IMG/VR virus record: IMGVR_UViG_3300005663_000130
Coordinates: 1 to 35,605 of that record
Length of the DNA: 35,605 nt
Strand: one strand, 5' to 3'
From: a virus
The notes below the pieces were generated by a model. It saw nothing but the letters and a program-made list of their open reading frames with translations, was not told the DNA's origin and searched no databases. Shown one piece after another: positions 1 to 35,605 of the stretch. The position numbers and the translations under genes are program-made. How positions within the stretch are numbered: position 1 is the first letter of the stretch; each line of letters starts with the position of its first letter.

Positions 1-1330
1 GTCTGTCACCTGCCTGGCGCGCCTTCTTTTTTCTCGGCTGGCGCCGCCCCGCTCCAGTGATCCGCGCCCTTCTTTTTTGCAGGCTTTCCTGCCGTTTTCC
101 CGTTTTTTTCCTCTCCTTTTTCTAATCAATCCCTCATCTTTTTTCTCGCGCAAACCCTGTTTTGTGCTATACTTAGCTAACGTTCACAACCCTTCTTCTA
201 TCCCTTTTAGTGAGGTGCTCCGTGTCAAACCCCCCCGTTCTACCCCCCCCCGGTTCCGTTGCCGGTGTTGTCAGTTCTGTTTTGGGTTTCTCTTCTGTCC
301 CCGTGGTTTCTTCTTTGTCCTGTCTTCGCTGTGGCAGGCTTGTTGTTGGGCTTGTCTTCTTTGGCGCTTGCCGGTTCTCTTTGGCGCGCCGTGCTCTGCT
401 TGCTGCCCGCTCCCGTGGTCTAGCCCGCGCCTTTGCGCTTTCCCCCCTTGGTGCCGGGCGCTGGTGTTTGGTTGTCTTTGTTGGCCTTTCTCGCTCTTGC
501 CTTTCCTCCCTTCCTGCCGTGCGCTCCGCCGTTCTCACTGCCCCGGTCGGTTGTTTTCGCTCCGCCGGGCGTTTGGGGTTTGGCTGTGGTTAGTCTCCCC
601 TCGTTTGGTCCCGTCGCCCGCTCTGCTTTCCGCGCCGGCTCTTTGCGTGGTGTGTTCCCCCGCTCTTCCAGCCGCGCCCGTTCTGGCGCGGTGTTGGTGT
701 GTCTTTTCTCCTGCCCTCGGCGCGCCGGCTCTTTTGCGGCGCGTTGGGCCGGTCGTTGTGGTGTTTCTGTTTCCCTCCGCCGTTGGGCCGGTCTTTGGGC
801 CGTGTCTGTCCCGGTTTCTGTCGGGTCTTCGCGTTGGCCTCCGTCTGTCGGCCGTGTGGTGTCTGTGGTCGGTGGTTTGCGCGCTTTCCGGCTCGCTCTC
901 CTTTCGTCTGGTCTTGCTTTTTAGTCTCCCATGTCCCCCTCCCCTTCTCCTTCCCCTTTCCCGCTCCCTTCCCTTCCCCCTGGGGCTCGTGTCCTGTTTG
1001 GGGGGTCCCGGTCCCTTGCTTCCTCCTCTTCTCCTCTCGTTGGTGGTGTTGTGCGCTCCGCCCTGGCGCGCGGCCTGGCGTTGTCCGTCGGCTGCGCGTC
1101 CGGGGCTGACGCCCTGGTCCTTTCCTCCGCTCTGGCAGTCTCTCCTGCTAGTGTGTCTCTTTTTTGCGTCGGTTCTTCAACCGGTGCCGGTTTCTGGTCG
1201 GGGTCCGCTTCCCTTTCCCTTTTGCGATCCGCCGCTCCAGCCGGTGCTGCTGTGTCGTGGTGGGCTGGTGGTGTCTCTTCTCTTCCCCTTCGCGCCCGGC
1301 TCATCCGCCGCTCCAAATCCGCGCTGTCCG
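1..1330. other. A-depleted, six-frame-open GC-rich tract
   Basis: The + strand is built almost only of C, T and G. Counting by eye gives 11 A in the 900 bases 241-1140, about 1 percent, with several 60-base lines holding none; G, C and T are each roughly a third in the middle part. Every stop codon needs an A on the + strand or a T on the - strand, so all six frames are open and long open frames here mean little. The bias fades at 121-230 and again after about 1330. Three GGCGCGCC palindromes lie at 16, 383 and 719. Only the end of one leftward gene (stop at 921) is credible inside it; positions 1-920 hold no gene I can support. Confidence 0.85.
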
Positions 1331-1622
1331 GTTGTTCCTGTGCCGTCTTCTTCTTGGCCTCAGCTTTTTCAGCATCTTCTATTCGCTTTTTCTTCTTCTC
1401 TTCGTCCTTCTCGTCTTCGTTCTCGTGCTCAGCCTTCTTGATCTCGATTTCCTCATCAAGATTTAGCTCTTCGGCTGCGGACTTAAAAAACTCTCCAACC
1501 TCTTCAGGTAGAGAGTTTATATTGTCCTTGATAGCTTCATAAGATAAGGCTAAGGCATTCTTGGTCTTATCATCGATCTCTGAGAAGTCATAGCTTGGAT
1601 CTTCGTCTTTGTTCTTTGCCAT
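921..1622 (-). CDS. acidic/charged disordered protein, C-terminal half in A-depleted tract
   Basis: About 233 residues. The first ~60 residues look like an ordinary small helical phage protein; then comes a lysine/glutamate-rich stretch, and the last ~130 residues are a disordered string of R, E, A, P, T, D and G, exactly the amino acids whose codons avoid T. The start chosen has a strong GGAGAAGG ribosome site about 5 bases upstream. The frame is open further upstream to 1793, but that outermost TTG is the first half of a TTGACA promoter box, so it is unlikely to be used; an ATG at 1739 is a second option. No domain recognised. The tail may have grown with the local base bias rather than by selection on protein. 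Confidence 0.55.
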   Translation of the reverse strand: MAKNKDEDPSYDFSEIDDKTKNALALSYEAIKDNINSLPEEVGEFFKSAAEELNLDEEIEIKKAEHENEDEKDEEKKKKRIEDAEKAEAKKKTAQEQPDSADLERRMSRARRGREETPPAHHDTAAPAGAADRKREREADPDQKPAPVEEPTQKRDTLAGETARAEERTRASAPDAQPTDNARPRARAERTTPPTRGEEEEARDRDPPNRTRAPGGREGSGKGEGEGEGDMGD

Positions 1623-27934: not shown

Positions 27935-28315
27935 TTAACCATTCATACGCCAAGGTGAAGCATTAGGCATCATCTTAGCTTTTTCCTCTGCTGTTAGTAA
28001 TGTATCTGTTACCTCTTTTAAGTTAGCTTCACCTTCCGGAGTCGATCTCGCAGCCTTTGCTATCTTCTTAGCAAGTATAACTGCCTGATTAGTTTTAGTT
28101 GCTTCCTTAAGCTTGTACTGTGTTAAATCTGTACCGGACAACTGATCAACTACCTGCATAATATTAGACCCCATACTGCCTAAATCAAATACAGATCCAC
28201 AACGCCTGCAGAATAATGCTTGTGGATATAATGTTCTGTTAACTGTAAGCTCAACTACTTTAAAATCATGATCTATATCATCCTGCTCGCAGACATAATA
28301 GATTATCTCACTCAT
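27935..28315 (-). CDS. 126-aa CxxC protein coupled to the VWA gene
   Basis: 126 residues. The N-terminal half has ALFCRRCGSVFDLG, a single CxxC; the rest is helical with lysine-rich stretches (ILAKKIAKAARS, TLLTAEEKAKM). Its start overlaps the stop of the von Willebrand A gene (TAATG), so the two are co-translated and may work together. Unknown function. Confidence 0.5.
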   Translation of the reverse strand: MSEIIYYVCEQDDIDHDFKVVELTVNRTLYPQALFCRRCGSVFDLGSMGSNIMQVVDQLSGTDLTQYKLKEATKTNQAVILAKKIAKAARSTPEGEANLKEVTDTLLTAEEKAKMMPNASPWRMNG

Positions 28316-30303
28316 TATGAAGTCACCAGTAGATTATATAGTAACTTTCTAAGAGCCTCTGGTAGATCAGTATAACTATTTAGCTTCTCATAAGAATCAC
28401 CATATGCCTTTTTAAGAAGATTATCTTGATTAGTAATTCTACCTTCGACGCCTGCACCGTACCCCATAATAGCAAGACAGTATGTATCTATCTTGTGCTT
28501 CTTGGCTAGCACTTCTACTAAATCTTCTACATATGTATTCAGAATCTTTTCGTCGTGTGGAAAGCCATCTGTGATATGAATAAGAAGATTGTCGCTAGCT
28601 CTGCCTAGTAATCTACGCATTAAACCAGGAACAGCTCCTATAACCGCTATTGAAGGCGTTCCACCCTCAGCTTCAACAAAACGTACTTCTTTATCGCCTG
28701 TTTCAAAAAGACGATATATATTTACATCGTTATCACTACTGCCTGGATAATATGCACCAGCATGAGAGTTATAAGCTAAAGCACATATCTTCACACCCCT
28801 GCGATGAGATAAACTTAATGCTAAAGAACTGACGCATTGGCCTAATATCTCTTGGCTGCCAGATACACTTGAAGACATATCAACCAAAATACAGATATTA
28901 ATATCTAGGCTGTCTTTGATGTCTCTCTTCTCGTACAGATGTTGGCTATTTAGACCAGCGCGATATAATCTTGTCTGAGAGATTGTTCCTTCTTCGGTTC
29001 CTCTACTATATCGCGTCTTGCGTCTCTTACGGAAGTTGAATATCTGTCTAATACTACGAGATACTTCATCATCTTGATCAGGAAGAACCATTGACGCTGC
29101 CTTTTCGACGATGACATTGGAATGATACTGATCTTGCATTGTATCAAAGAATCCTTCATCACTGAATTCATCCATGATATCTTGAGTTATATCCTCTCTG
29201 TCATTCACGATAGCAGATTCTATACGTTGTTCCAACTCTTCAGGCAACTTTTGGTGACTCTTATCCTGACAAGGAAAAACCTTACTGTATGGGCTATCTC
29301 TAGGCTCTTCATCCTTATCAGACTCTTCGCTCTCATCTGCACCCGTTCCAGATGACTCTTCAAAAGGATCGTCATCCTCCTCTTCATCCTCGTCCTCTTT
29401 ATCCTCAGCATCTTCTTCGTCAGCCTTATCATCCCCTTCGTTGCCAGAGCCATCATCACCTGTGTCACTATTCTGTTGACTATCATCATTGTCACTATCT
29501 TCTTTTTGCTCATTGCCATTCTTGCCTTCGCCATCTTCGCTAGGCTCACCATCCTCTGATGGTTGACCAACAGGATCACTATAACCCTTCATCTGTCCCC
29601 ATATAGACTCATACATTGCTACTGCATCTACTAAACCCTTTTTCTTACAGTATGTATCTGTTATCTCAGCTAGATTAAGTAAAGTTTCTAAAATAGTATC
29701 AGGAAAATCCTTCAGTTCATCTGCTGAATTAAATCCATACAGTTCATATTTAGCCCAGAGTTTAAGAACATCTACTTTAGTTAGTTCATCAGTTTGAGCC
29801 TTCAGCTTTAACTCATCAGTATCAATAGCATACTTTGGCTGTTCCATATCCCATTCTCTGCCACGTTTGATGTATGCTTCAAGCACAGGAGCCTTACTGA
29901 TATAAAGATAATGATCTATATAGACATCCTCTAGAAGATTTCTAACAGCAAGTTCTATGTCAACTGTCATGCCATCAGGACGTTCTTGATCATCTAGAAG
30001 CCTAACAGATTGACCACGTTGATCTCTGATACGATGACCAGCCTCATGCGCTGCAAAGCCTGCAATAACATCAACAGTTTCACCAGAGAATGGTGTCGAT
30101 ACATCTGCAACAGGCGCATAGCTGAGTGTTACTTTTCTCGCACTGCTGTCGGTTTGAGAGTTCGCACCCCAGGCAACTTGAAACTCACCTTCGTCAGCAG
30201 CCATTTCGATAAAGGCTTTAAGATCTTCCAGAATAGTCTTCATCTCTATAGCTTTATCATAAGAGCGGCGAGTACGCCAGAAGTCACTCAGGCTCTTTGT
30301 CAT
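28315..30303 (-). CDS. von Willebrand A protein with HEAGH N-terminal domain
   Basis: 662 residues. Residues ~60-130 hold AAHEAGHR and later NLLEDVYID, resembling an HExxH zinc-metallopeptidase signature with a downstream acid; a CobT-type N-terminal domain is also possible. A 100-residue Asp/Glu-rich linker follows (about 245-350). The C-terminal ~200 residues are a von Willebrand A fold with a full MIDAS set: ILVDMSSSVSGS, EGGTPS and HITDGFPHD. Together with the neighbouring AAA+ ATPase it forms a MoxR/VWA-type pair, as known for metal chelatase and assembly-remodelling systems. In phages such pairs are seen but poorly understood. Confidence 0.75.
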   Translation of the reverse strand: MTKSLSDFWRTRRSYDKAIEMKTILEDLKAFIEMAADEGEFQVAWGANSQTDSSARKVTLSYAPVADVSTPFSGETVDVIAGFAAHEAGHRIRDQRGQSVRLLDDQERPDGMTVDIELAVRNLLEDVYIDHYLYISKAPVLEAYIKRGREWDMEQPKYAIDTDELKLKAQTDELTKVDVLKLWAKYELYGFNSADELKDFPDTILETLLNLAEITDTYCKKKGLVDAVAMYESIWGQMKGYSDPVGQPSEDGEPSEDGEGKNGNEQKEDSDNDDSQQNSDTGDDGSGNEGDDKADEEDAEDKEDEDEEEDDDPFEESSGTGADESEESDKDEEPRDSPYSKVFPCQDKSHQKLPEELEQRIESAIVNDREDITQDIMDEFSDEGFFDTMQDQYHSNVIVEKAASMVLPDQDDEVSRSIRQIFNFRKRRKTRYSRGTEEGTISQTRLYRAGLNSQHLYEKRDIKDSLDINICILVDMSSSVSGSQEILGQCVSSLALSLSHRRGVKICALAYNSHAGAYYPGSSDNDVNIYRLFETGDKEVRFVEAEGGTPSIAVIGAVPGLMRRLLGRASDNLLIHITDGFPHDEKILNTYVEDLVEVLAKKHKIDTYCLAIMGYGAGVEGRITNQDNLLKKAYGDSYEKLNSYTDLPEALRKLLYNLLVTS

Positions 30304-30541
30304 TACTATCACCTTCTTCTTCCATAATAGCTGCTACCAAGATCTGTAACATTTCACCAGTCATCTTATGAATAAGCTTCAGATTTTCTATAACGCTTTT
30401 AATCTTGAATTCTGTATGAGGAGCAGGGTAGACATCACTAGCTAAATCTTCTATTGCTGTAAATGCTCGCTCGAAGCGTTCCATTACAGCCTCTTGAACA
30501 GTAACGCCTTCGCTAAGATCATCTATTTCAGGATTATCCAC
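30284..30541 (-). CDS. 85-aa protein between MoxR and VWA genes
   Basis: 85 residues. GTG start overlapping the AAA+ stop, and its end overlaps the VWA gene. Helical, acidic C-terminus (EEEGDSNDKEPE). Position between the two partners suggests an adaptor for the complex, but this is inference. Confidence 0.5.
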   Translation of the reverse strand: MDNPEIDDLSEGVTVQEAVMERFERAFTAIEDLASDVYPAPHTEFKIKSVIENLKLIHKMTGEMLQILVAAIMEEEGDSNDKEPE

Positions 30542-31586
30542 TCCAGTGACTCCACTTATCCTCTACTTCTAGACTATCAGCATTACCTGTAACAGAAGAC
30601 TTAACTTGCAGGATTTGCAAGGCTTCCGTTTGCTGATCGGGTGTCATATTACCTATCATACCTAACATAGCAGCATCTACTAAACTAGCCCCATATTTAA
30701 TGTCAGCAGCAAGTCTCAGTGCGTGACGAATAGAAAGTGGAAGACCTTTCTTAATACACTGTAGAAAGAAATCTATACCTATAGTAATCTCTGGAGTCTG
30801 AGCAACCTTGGAATAGATTATCTGTCTAATAATATCTGCGGGTGGCAACGGGATAGGTATTACATCGAAGCGGTCTTTTAATCCAGCATCTGCTTCATCT
30901 GCACCCGTGTACTGCCACCCTTCGTTAGATGTTGCAAAGAAGACAACACCTATAGCTACCCGAATATCTCTTCCCATCTCTTCGCACCATGTAGCTCCTG
31001 TCTCATCACATATATCCATAAGAGGATTCAGAACTTTAGGATTTTCTACACGAGTAATATCATTCAGGATGATAACAGCATTCTCTGTCTCGACAGCCTC
31101 AACAAAAACACTTGGAGTATAAAACGTTCCACGTTCTGGAGTAAATGCTGTTCTACCCATCCATTGACTTACTTCTGTCATGGCAGGACAAGGAGCCTTA
31201 TAAGTTGGTGACTTTGTGACGGCTGCAAATTCCAGCGCAAGACTTGTTTTGCCTGTACCAGCAGGGCCTACAAACCAGACATGCTGTAATGAGTGTTCTC
31301 GTCTATCAATCATCCGCTGAAACTTGCCCTGGACACGTTCTGGCATAACAAAGTTCGGGTCAGATTTAAAGAACTGAAGCCGAGTTTTTGTCTTATTTTC
31401 TTCTTCCCATTCCTTCTTTTGCTCGTCATCTAAGGCATGTCCTGATTGACCATTAGCATTAGTAGTAATTACAACTGGCGCTGAGTCATCTGGCTTTTTA
31501 TCACAGAAGTTTCGCTCATGGACAACTTGCTGTACTGAAGTTTGATAAGGCCCATCCCCACAATATTGACATCTGTAGTCTTCCAT
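30534..31586 (-). CDS. MoxR-type AAA+ ATPase with N-terminal zinc motif
   Basis: 350 residues. N-terminus has YRCQYCG, a CxxC that could be a small zinc ribbon, before a ~60-residue linker. The ATPase core shows Walker A GPAGTGKTS, Walker B AVIILND, sensor FFATSN and GLKDRFDVI (arginine finger region), with a typical MoxR/CobS/dynein-like layout. AGGAG five bases upstream fixes the start; an earlier in-frame start lacks one. Together with the VWA protein it probably remodels or loads a target protein or complex. Confidence 0.85.
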   Translation of the reverse strand: MEDYRCQYCGDGPYQTSVQQVVHERNFCDKKPDDSAPVVITTNANGQSGHALDDEQKKEWEEENKTKTRLQFFKSDPNFVMPERVQGKFQRMIDRREHSLQHVWFVGPAGTGKTSLALEFAAVTKSPTYKAPCPAMTEVSQWMGRTAFTPERGTFYTPSVFVEAVETENAVIILNDITRVENPKVLNPLMDICDETGATWCEEMGRDIRVAIGVVFFATSNEGWQYTGADEADAGLKDRFDVIPIPLPPADIIRQIIYSKVAQTPEITIGIDFFLQCIKKGLPLSIRHALRLAADIKYGASLVDAAMLGMIGNMTPDQQTEALQILQVKSSVTGNADSLEVEDKWSHWSG

Positions 31587-31628
31587 ACCTACTCCTTTAC
31601 TCTGCACCTGAATTACAGAGCTTATAGA

Positions 31629-33169: not shown

Positions 33170-33589
33170 TTATCTTTTGATAACTGTTTCTAGCTGTGTT
33201 AATATTTCATTATGGCTTAACTTCTGTTCCCCAGGTTTCCAGGGCCATCCAACTTCTCTATCTACAGACTTTATGAATGCTGCAGCCTTTTCAGCTAAGA
33301 CATTCATTGGATATGTTTCCCATGCTATATCTGCTTCTTTAACGATCATGCCGTGGCCTCTATATTCAAAAGCATAGAGATGATTCTGTCGATTATAGTC
33401 AGCATGGAGAGTATGACCTTCTTTTCCAGTAGATTGATCTGGACTAGAAGCACCACGATACTGTCGATCTTTTCGATCAAAGTCTTTGTGTTCAAGGAGA
33501 CTTTGATAACCACGACTGCAAAAATGGGTTTGTTGAATATCAGAAGATATCTTTCCACAGTTCGGACATCTTAGAGGCTGAATCTTCAT
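33170..33589 (-). CDS. 139-aa zinc-finger protein, unknown
   Basis: 139 residues. N-terminal RCPNCGKISS and later FCSRG suggest a zinc knuckle; the middle holds HTLHADYNRQ, the rest is helical. Coupled to the upstream gene by TAATG. No recognised family. Confidence 0.5.
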   Translation of the reverse strand: MKIQPLRCPNCGKISSDIQQTHFCSRGYQSLLEHKDFDRKDRQYRGASSPDQSTGKEGHTLHADYNRQNHLYAFEYRGHGMIVKEADIAWETYPMNVLAEKAAAFIKSVDREVGWPWKPGEQKLSHNEILTQLETVIKR

Positions 33590-34254
33590 TAAGTCTTCTC
33601 CTCTCCTGGGGCTAGGGCAGCACGGACTTGCCGCTCGCTCATGCGTAAGAACCTCGCTGCCTCACGGCGGGCGTCATTGTCCGGCACCCACGCTAGAACG
33701 CCCTGTAAGTGGCGCTTAGCCTCTGCAAACACAAGGGCATGAAGGCGGCACCCTCCGCATCGCTCCCCCTGGGCCAGCAGCGCCGCAGCAGCCGGGGAGG
33801 TGTCAGCGTAGAGCCTGTCGATAGCTTTACGCACTAGCGCCCACGGCGCATTCTCGCCCCGCTCGAACTCCACGCCCTCCGCAAGGGCCTCTAAGTCGTT
33901 GGCAGCGCACTCTAACGCACCGCCAGCCATTTGCACCAGCACCGCTTTCTCCGCATCGCAGGCCGGTGTGTTGGCTAGAGCAAACCGTAGTTCAAAGACT
34001 CCGGCGTATGGCTTTCGATGGTCTGCGTCTTCTAGGCGCTCAGGCCCATAGTAGGCAACATGACAGATTTTGAGTGCGAAGCCGTGAAATGTCTCCCAGA
34101 AGGCGTCGTCGAAAATGAATCCTGGCTGCGTTCGCATCTTGTAAACGTAGTCGTCAACCTTCTGCGGCTTCTCAAGCCACTCACGTTGCGGTCCAAGAGC
34201 CTGGTAGAACTGTTCGACTTCGTTCTCCAGCAGCCTCAGCGCCTCGTCATTCAT
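33589..34254 (-). CDS. 221-aa protein with C-terminal HTH-like segment
   Basis: 221 residues, mostly helical, in the GC-rich right-hand block. N-terminal RLLENEVEQFYQALG, a middle CGGCR (residues ~170), and a C-terminal REAARFLRMSERQVRAAL that reads as a helix-turn-helix. The start overlaps the preceding small membrane gene's stop. Base composition is visibly GC-richer than genes below 33.6 kb. Function unknown; possibly a regulator. Confidence 0.55.
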   Translation of the reverse strand: MNDEALRLLENEVEQFYQALGPQREWLEKPQKVDDYVYKMRTQPGFIFDDAFWETFHGFALKICHVAYYGPERLEDADHRKPYAGVFELRFALANTPACDAEKAVLVQMAGGALECAANDLEALAEGVEFERGENAPWALVRKAIDRLYADTSPAAAALLAQGERCGGCRLHALVFAEAKRHLQGVLAWVPDNDARREAARFLRMSERQVRAALAPGEEKT

Positions 34255-34358
34255 GGCAAGACCCCATTCTTCAACAGGGCGGCGACGATAGAGACAGCCG
34301 CAAACAAACCGATAGACAGGAACATCACCGCTATCCACTTCCATTGATGAAAGCTCAC
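34251..34358 (-). CDS. 35-aa single-pass membrane protein, GTG start
   Basis: 35 residues: SFHQWKW, then IAVMFLSIGLFAAVSIVAAL, a membrane helix. GGAGG is seven bases upstream and the GTG overlaps the previous stop (GTGA). Easily missed. Similar in type to the other membrane peptides in the window. Confidence 0.5.
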   Translation of the reverse strand: MSFHQWKWIAVMFLSIGLFAAVSIVAALLKNGVLP

Positions 34359-34777
34359 TGCTTCTCCTCCTTCTCCCTGGCCTCTTCGGACGTGGCGTCG
34401 ATGGCGGCACGAGCTTCCTTGCACCGGCTGGAGCACGGATACCTGATGCACCGTGTACGCGATTCATCCCTAGCCCAATTGACGTGGCGGCAACTGAAAT
34501 GATGCCAGCGCCCACAGTAGCAACAATCCTCTCCTGATTTTAGTATCTCCTCTCGACGCAGCTTGGCCAGCGCCTTGTAGCCGTCGCGCTCACGCTCCAG
34601 GAAATGGATGCCATCTATGGTGAGTTGCACGATGGCCGTTGCTGTAGCCTGTAACTGGCTCCACAACCAAACGCCGCGCCCGTGCGTCTCGTCCAGCGCG
34701 GCCTGTAGGCGGGCATTATCGGTCTTGAGGCGAGAACAGGCAGTCATGTAGTGTTCAAGCTCGTCGGTTGCGCTCAT
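34355..34777 (-). CDS. 140-aa protein with coiled coil and cysteine/histidine cluster
   Basis: 140 residues. N-terminal coiled-coil-like helix (RLKTDNARLQAALDETHG), a middle helix ending in YKALAKLRREEI, and a C-terminal CCYCGRWHHFSCRHVNW...CIRYPCSSRC with several Cys/His pairs, likely two zinc sites. ATGA-coupled. GC-rich. Function unknown. Confidence 0.5.
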   Translation of the reverse strand: MSATDELEHYMTACSRLKTDNARLQAALDETHGRGVWLWSQLQATATAIVQLTIDGIHFLERERDGYKALAKLRREEILKSGEDCCYCGRWHHFSCRHVNWARDESRTRCIRYPCSSRCKEARAAIDATSEEAREKEEKQ

Positions 34778-35136
34778 TCGCTCTCTCCCAGAACAGTACG
34801 GAGGGCCGAAACGTAACCGCACCTGCAATCACGGACGCCAGGAGCGTGGTGATCCAGAACACAGTCCAGATGGTGCCTACCGTACTCCGTAAATAGCCTC
34901 TGCGCCTCCTCCAGCGCCTCCAGGGCGGCGGCACGCTCAGCCCGCAGATTTGCCATCTCCGCGCACTTGGAGCACACAGGCTTCACGGCCCGTCGCTCGC
35001 GCTCACCACACCCCCCACAGGCATAAGTTTCTTCAGTGACGCGTTGATGGCAGCCAACTAGAGTCGAACTCTCCAGCCTCCATTCACCGTGTCGGTGGAA
35101 ACGCCCCTGTCGGTCTCGAAGGGCAGCCCCACTCAT
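34774..35136 (-). CDS. 120-aa zinc-ribbon/coiled-coil protein
   Basis: 120 residues. ACGGCGERERR and PVCSKCAEM, a zinc-ribbon pair, followed by an arginine/alanine-rich helix (LRAERAAALEALEEAQRLF) and a DCRCGY end. GC-rich block. Function unknown. Confidence 0.5.
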   Translation of the reverse strand: MSGAALRDRQGRFHRHGEWRLESSTLVGCHQRVTEETYACGGCGERERRAVKPVCSKCAEMANLRAERAAALEALEEAQRLFTEYGRHHLDCVLDHHAPGVRDCRCGYVSALRTVLGESE

Positions 35137-35181
35137 TCCGTCGCCGCCTCGCACCGCGCCCTGGCCGCTTGAGGGTCAAAC

Positions 35182-35605
35182 CTAGCGGCAGTATGGCCAG
35201 GGACTTGTCCTTGTTCCTTCATGACTCAACTCCCAGGCTGCGAGTACATTGTTGGTATCATCCTCTAGCCATCCTCTCTCGTAGTTATGTCCTATCCATA
35301 TCTGGAACAGGCCGACATACGGGTTCCAGTCTGCGTAGGCATTAGGGTCCTGACCTAGTGTTGACTCGCACCGTGCTATACCTATCCAATAGTTGCATCC
35401 TTGGGGCCAGGGGTAGGCACAGATAAGTTCCTCAACTCCTCGTCTACCTGAAACTGGAGCCGGATTTTCCTCAACAACTGTATACCTAGCTCCGTCCAGC
35501 CCCACTCCTCCAGCCACCTTGATGTTAGGCTTGGCGGAGGCACCAGTCGGTGTACCTCCCTGTGCTTGCAGGTCAGCCAGTGTAGTAAGTCGAACATCTA
35601 TGGCC
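35182..35605 (-). CDS. lysozyme/transglycosylase-like protein, partial (runs off window)
   Basis: At least 140 residues, 5' end outside the window. The C-terminal ~80 residues carry the fold and catalytic glutamate motif of transglycosylase/goose-type-lysozyme-like domains: YWIGIARCESTLGQDPNAY, then NPYVGLFQIW, then a loop, then NNVLAAWELSHEG...PWPYC. The N-terminal visible part is low-complexity. It may be a virion-associated lytic protein or part of an endolysin; the missing front part must be seen to say. The frame stays open to the last base. Confidence 0.65.
   Translation of the reverse strand, partial: AIDVRLTTLADLQAQGGTPTGASAKPNIKVAGGVGLDGARYTVVEENPAPVSGRRGVEELICAYPWPQGCNYWIGIARCESTLGQDPNAYADWNPYVGLFQIWIGHNYERGWLEDDTNNVLAAWELSHEGTRTSPWPYCR

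Follow-up and report, generated by a model that had tools for sequence, protein, structure and literature searches.

The window analysed here, an entire virus record of 35,605 bases, carries at its start (positions 1-1355) the first portion of a mobile gene cassette, comprising a leader, ORF1, ORF2 and a DprA-like SLOG gene, which is misjoined to another phage. A comparison with related loci shows that the mRNA-sense strand of ORF2 and of the SLOG gene is kept near adenine-free, at synonymous as well as non-synonymous sites, across very divergent carriers.

Composition and gene content of the adenine-poor tract

Base counting returned 11 A between positions 241 and 1140, exactly the number given by the first-pass annotation of this DNA, and the 900-nt stretch lowest in A is located at 230-1129 with 10 A. 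Between 593 and 892 there is 1 A per 300 nt, compared with a mean of 25.5% A over the whole window, and these counts rule out chance as the source of the depletion. The maximal A-poor segment extends from 230 to 1440 and contains 25 A; a segment scan of the 35,605-nt window revealed no comparable segment for T, C or G. The annotation had also described all six frames as open and the bias as running past the stop of the only credible gene. Both descriptions had to be corrected: stops persist at TAG 421, TAG 591-593, TAG 922-924, TGA 1107 and TAG 1149, two of which terminate genes, and the tract is filled by overlapping plus-strand ORFs at 222-593, 586-924 and from 931 onward. Two of these three are conserved elsewhere under purifying selection, and a non-coding reading of the tract does not hold for a conserved gene cassette present in many genomes. 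The claim of a nucleotide-level signal is borne out, since synonymous sites are A-free as well.

The leader (1-221, plus strand) is T/C-rich and, with about 12% A, A-poor and not A-free, as judged from sequence, counts and relatives; its ribosome-binding site, located at about 213-218, reads GAGGTG, and a T-rich leader of similar kind is present in relatives. The putative ORF1 (222-593, plus strand) consists of 123 codons with a GTG start and a TAG stop that is retained within the A-free stretch; a relative search detected no convincing relatives except the identical copy in viral contig L002. ORF2 (586-924, plus strand, 112 codons) has a GTG start overlapping the ORF1 stop, and alignment and dN/dS identify it as the conserved partner of the SLOG gene. 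Its AlphaFold2 model reached a modest pLDDT of 72, and neither a Pfam match nor a PDB fold match was obtained for it. The DprA-like SLOG-fold gene (931-1355, plus strand) starts with ATG and is cut at the junction, which leaves about 142 of about 200 codons. The remaining product is 54% identical to the protein of locus L003, which is complete and about 60 residues longer. The GAC codon of the invariant Asp in the GAD motif lies at 1108-1110 (plus strand; column D44 of the SLOG alignment), and its A is retained in every relative. RNA structure is no general rule across the cassettes, with z values of -3.4 for window positions 586-1353 and -1.1 for locus L021.

The contig is a misjoin

Positions 1-1355 are 100% identical to the terminus of viral contig L002 (UViG_3300005253_000331), which stops at window position 1355 and runs leftward into a different phage that encodes structural proteins, a portal-like one among them. 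When positions 1330-2900 were used as DNA query, only 1330-1355 matched in L002. The chimeric junction itself, to which no strand applies, lies at 1345-1355, where the cassette and a phage scaffold gene have the 11 nt GTCTTCTTCTT in common. Both the plus-strand DprA-like gene and this scaffold gene are interrupted at that point. The latter remains as a truncated scaffold-like gene of an unrelated tailed phage (1356-1793, minus strand), as indicated by the scaffold alignment with contig L094, the native continuation in contig L120 and the phage genes to the right. L094 is a relative of the right-hand phage (protease 86% identical), in which the scaffold gene carries on and is followed by capsid-like genes; its homology stops at the junction. 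L120 is identical to window positions 1345-1400 and then contains the native scaffold gene (KKKTDMIKSAFPG...) in place of the A-poor tract. The identity with L002 together with the native continuation in L120 therefore shows that the tract is foreign to the phage filling the rest of the window. The idea of a chimera, raised in the annotation, is right for the contig and wrong for the tract itself, which is a conserved cassette of many genomes. The sharp edges noted there divide in the same way: the left one is natural and lies near the ORF1 start codon, and the right one is the assembly junction.

Some additional observations concern the contigs. Positions 1-248 of L120 are unmatched in the window, though the next 56 bases match, so that a separate misjoin may exist in L120 at the same K/E-rich stretch. 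At about 33.5 kb of the window the GC content rises from about 0.40 to 0.51-0.64, so that 33500-35605 may have been acquired or may reflect a second misjoin. At 28315-31607 there are adjoining genes with matches to phage families of the cobalamin-biosynthesis-like and MoxR/AAA-like types.

A divergent DprA-like SLOG protein

The AlphaFold2 model of the L003 protein (pLDDT 93.6) has a DprA-type Rossmann-like SLOG fold, and its top PDB matches in Foldseek are DprA of S. pneumoniae, ShosA and DprA of H. pylori, followed by LOG and Moco carrier proteins, so that the matches cover the LOG, Moco carrier and DprA groups of the SLOG superfamily. The TM scores against the DprA structures are 0.52-0.60. 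Profile matches to DprA (PF02481, TIGR00732) are weak, though they agree with the fold: PF02481 was matched by 12 of 18 members at E values up to 0.1, and the L003 protein stayed below the curated cut-off (19.3 vs 29.6 bits). The product of the 931-1355 family is a divergent DprA-like SLOG protein. It shares the SLOG/Rossmann-like fold and the GSR and GAD motifs with DprA, its best PDB match (TM 0.60), but comprises only the SLOG domain with about 200 residues and is encoded almost without adenine. A-poor DprA-like proteins of similar kind may also occur in cyanobacteria.

The DprA-like antitoxins ShosA and PsyrA of the ShosTA and PsyrTA systems are similar insofar as ShosA is the third-best fold match, PADLOC returned weak antitoxin matches and the cassette is also located on mobile elements. 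In contrast to these systems, the partner ORF2 encodes a small protein without fold match, and next to the DprA-like gene no toxin was recognised, the PADLOC matches being limited to the weak antitoxin ones.

Occurrence on mobile elements

The cassette, defined as ORF2 plus the DprA-like SLOG gene, was found in about 25 loci on phage contigs, plasmids and bacterial genome contigs. The plasmids belong to Methylobacter, Methylocaldum, Methylomagnum, Allochromatium and three Nitrosococcus species and thus represent the Methylococcaceae, Chromatiaceae and Nitrosococcus, with complete plasmid records among them. The genome contigs are labelled as Methylococcales, Methylomonas, Crenothrix, Sulfuricella, Imhoffiella, Chromatium weissei, Granulosicoccaceae and Anaerolineae. 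Neighbouring genes encode siphovirus Gp157, DUF932, RepA, ParA/MipZ, integrases, portal and terminase, and the setting of the cassette is that of a mobile element. On plasmid A of Nitrosococcus oceani (L091, 4137-4743) genes for a HicA toxin and a HicB antitoxin are located directly 3' of the cassette.

This distribution also bears on the reading that assembly error or low complexity accounts for the entire tract, which would then have no biology. The junction at 1345-1355 does prove artefactual and is accepted as such, but homologous cassettes in many independent genomes and in complete plasmid records, together with purifying selection, refute this reading for the tract itself and make it practically negligible. 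Low complexity was considered separately in a survey that listed A-free runs of at least 142 nt in a sample of 398 genomes, and was rejected. The other A-free runs listed resemble, for the most part, repeats of low complexity or the opposite strand of coding sequence rich in K/A/E; in C. weissei, all four A-free runs of this length in the sample fall inside the cassette.

Adenine exclusion as a trait of the family

In nearly all loci the coding (mRNA-sense) strand is depleted in A alone. The strongest A-poor segment likewise overlies the coding strand of the SLOG gene in almost all of them, with 0.6-6.7% A over 0.25-1.46 kb. At fourfold-degenerate sites the cassettes contain 154 A in 4987 positions (3.1%) compared to 4573 in 23117 (about 20%) in neighbouring ORFs; single loci reach 0/170 (L021), 0/262 (L090) and 1/310 (L019). 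As fourfold sites are A-free too, an effect of protein composition alone was rejected. The A's that stay are the essential ones in stops and in the invariant Asp: the L021 gene has 1 A-containing codon in 193, which is the GAC of this Asp, and the two genes of C. weissei contain three A-containing codons plus the stops among 377 codons. Pairs of A-poor SLOG genes show dS values up to about 1 with dN/dS of 0.19-0.30, and ORF2 pairs between relatives have dN/dS of 0.10-0.34. This indicates that the proteins are constrained and that the exclusion of A persists through synonymous turnover.

The trait has exceptions. Several members tolerate 5-7% A, the Anaerolineae locus L016 has a near-normal A content, and in the Methylomonas locus L011 (3901-4855) the SLOG gene contains 21% A and ORF2 is still A-poor. 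The L011 SLOG gene sits on a long branch within an A-poor clade, which suggests that the constraint was lost from one gene. In Chloroflexota, eleven DprA genes and one additional member of the family lack any A-poor segment, so the depletion is not required by the fold. Selection against off-frame stops was also considered and is unsupported, because members with 5-7% A such as L007 hold several of them. Among the residual A's, CA is favoured and GA and AC are disfavoured, a preference that may be explained by G-to-A input at CpG.

Two further stretches of unusual composition were observed. On the reverse strand of the Sulfuricella MAG locus L030 (about 445-710) a second A-poor stretch with 3 A in 266 nt lies close to an inverted repeat, and no SLOG gene was recognised there. 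In L028 (3974-4273) the plus strand lacks T for 300 bases, and the sequence consists of degenerate tandem repeats.

Boundaries and leaders

On the 3' side, A accounts for 2-6% of the sequence up to 30 nt ahead of the SLOG stop, for 16% of these final 30 nt and for 21-33% of what follows the stop. On the 5' side, the window, L025, L018, L010, L006, L011 and L028 change composition at the first start codon or no more than a few codons away from it. Taken over the loci, the edges coincide with start and stop codons in about half and lie near the stop in nearly all. Leaders are A-free or nearly so in L009, L091, L093, L021 and L015 and contain 10-25% A in the window, L025, L018, L006 and L010. The ribosome-binding site of several loci reads GGGGGTG, which by its sequence is probably GGAGGTG with G replacing A. 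A search covering six leaders revealed inverted repeats of 16-49 nt whose right arm overlaps the T-rich leader (L007 4260-4436, L009 4213-4444, L010 4344-4503, L015 4637-4883 and L090 3338-3512). No evidence for the packaging or replication signal suggested earlier was found, and the A-poor pattern tracks genes.

Possible causes of the adenine exclusion

Our preferred reading, held tentatively, is that A is removed by selection on the message, so that an A-free transcript survives an adenine-dependent attack on mRNA. Candidate attackers would be ribosome-dependent nucleases of the HigB/RelE type with a preference for A-containing codons or, alternatively, MazF-type nucleases with A inside their target sites. 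This would allow the cell to go on making the DprA-like protein and its partner during the destruction of its other messages, for example in an inter-element or anti-phage shut-off. Immunity to adenine-dependent cleavage is suggested by analogy: HigB toxins prefer codons with A (PMC9098466), and mRNAs lacking ACA serve for expression under MazF (PMC9102682). In this single-protein production, too, a message without the nuclease target survives while others are cut (PMC9102682), but those messages are engineered and lack only ACA triplets, whereas the cassette is naturally without all A and its attacker is putative. HigB-like toxins were detected in 3 of 5 carrier genomes tested, and the HicA gene adjoining the cassette of N. 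oceani also fits this reading. In the comparison of the Nitrosococcus plasmids, G-to-A change is the only source of new A's in the coding part, which is what mutation-selection balance would predict.

Several results count against immunity of the message. PF05015 had no match in 2 of the 5 carrier genomes tested, and to our knowledge the avoidance of known nucleases would take the loss of less than every A. A is often present (16%) in the last ten or so codons of the SLOG gene, where an attack coupled to the ribosome should select against it. Leaders are A-free in some loci and not in others, so that a purely codon-bound model cannot account for every locus, and no more can a whole-transcript model. 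The members with 5-7% A, the near-normal L011 and the Chloroflexota members likewise speak against it.

Among the alternatives, a locus-specific mutation that replaces coding-strand A by other bases, comparable to the adenine mutagenesis seen with diversity-generating retroelements (DGR), with selection retaining only the essential A's, appears rather unlikely to us. Both phenomena are adenine-specific and confined to one strand, the missing A's are distributed over T, C and G, and A loss per A site appears raised in the Nitrosococcus cassette, although these counts are small. However, the cassette genes are conserved (dN/dS 0.10-0.34) instead of diversified, and the edges track start and stop codons. 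Furthermore, RVT_1 (PF00078) was matched in 3 of 5 carrier genomes and had no match in C. weissei and the Granulosicoccaceae MAG, both strong carriers, which argues against mutagenesis by a reverse transcriptase (RT). As for the hypermutated segment proposed in the annotation, the spread of the missing A's over three bases excludes A-to-G deamination as sole cause, and the RT-based version is disfavoured. A role of the A-free strand at the DNA level, in recombination, R-loops or single-strand uptake tied to the DprA-like protein or the mobile element, is unlikely. It would suit the neighbouring Gp157, RepA and integrase genes, the inverted repeat at the leader and the fact that DprA binds ssDNA, but the edges follow genes and no fixed site, and the protein-coding sequence is conserved separately.

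Transcription of the operon under severe ATP scarcity, caused by an ATP-depleting defence or starvation, so that the message avoids ATP as building block, would account for strand-specific loss of A at all positions and for the A-free leaders of L009, L091, L093 and L021. We nevertheless regard it as quite unlikely, as the leaders with 10-25% A (window, L025, L018, L006 and L010) would still need ATP, and charging of tRNAs for translation consumes ATP anyway. Those same A-free leaders speak against an avoidance of tRNAs with U in the anticodon, for instance those cut by anticodon nucleases, although in roughly half of the loci examined the start codon marks the onset of the depletion. This possibility is very unlikely because third-position G is abundant, and gammaproteobacteria usually decode GCG with the U34 tRNA that also serves GCA, and GTG with the one that serves GTA. 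The distribution of the missing A's over T, C and G, the carriers without an RT match, the Nitrosococcus substitutions and the gene-linked edges taken together favour selection on the message. With low confidence, we infer that RT-driven adenine mutagenesis, A-to-G deamination and tRNA-level accounts fit worse than immunity of the message.

Novelty and meaning

In a full-text literature search no relevant description of adenine-depleted or adenine-lacking genes was found, and we know of no base exclusion of such strength that is strand-specific and kept through synonymous turnover on conserved proteins. It is conceivable, if still doubtful, that these cassettes form a class of three-letter genes, in which operons of mobile elements are held near adenine-free by a dedicated pressure at the message level. 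Their functional SLOG-fold products would consist largely of the ten amino acids that have A-free codons, together with one essential Asp, and the operons could be expressed while A-containing mRNAs are destroyed. The exclusion of this base points to a selective agent acting on adenine in mRNA, and natural folded proteins that make do with three nucleotides and not many more than ten amino acids bear on the question of minimal genetic alphabets.
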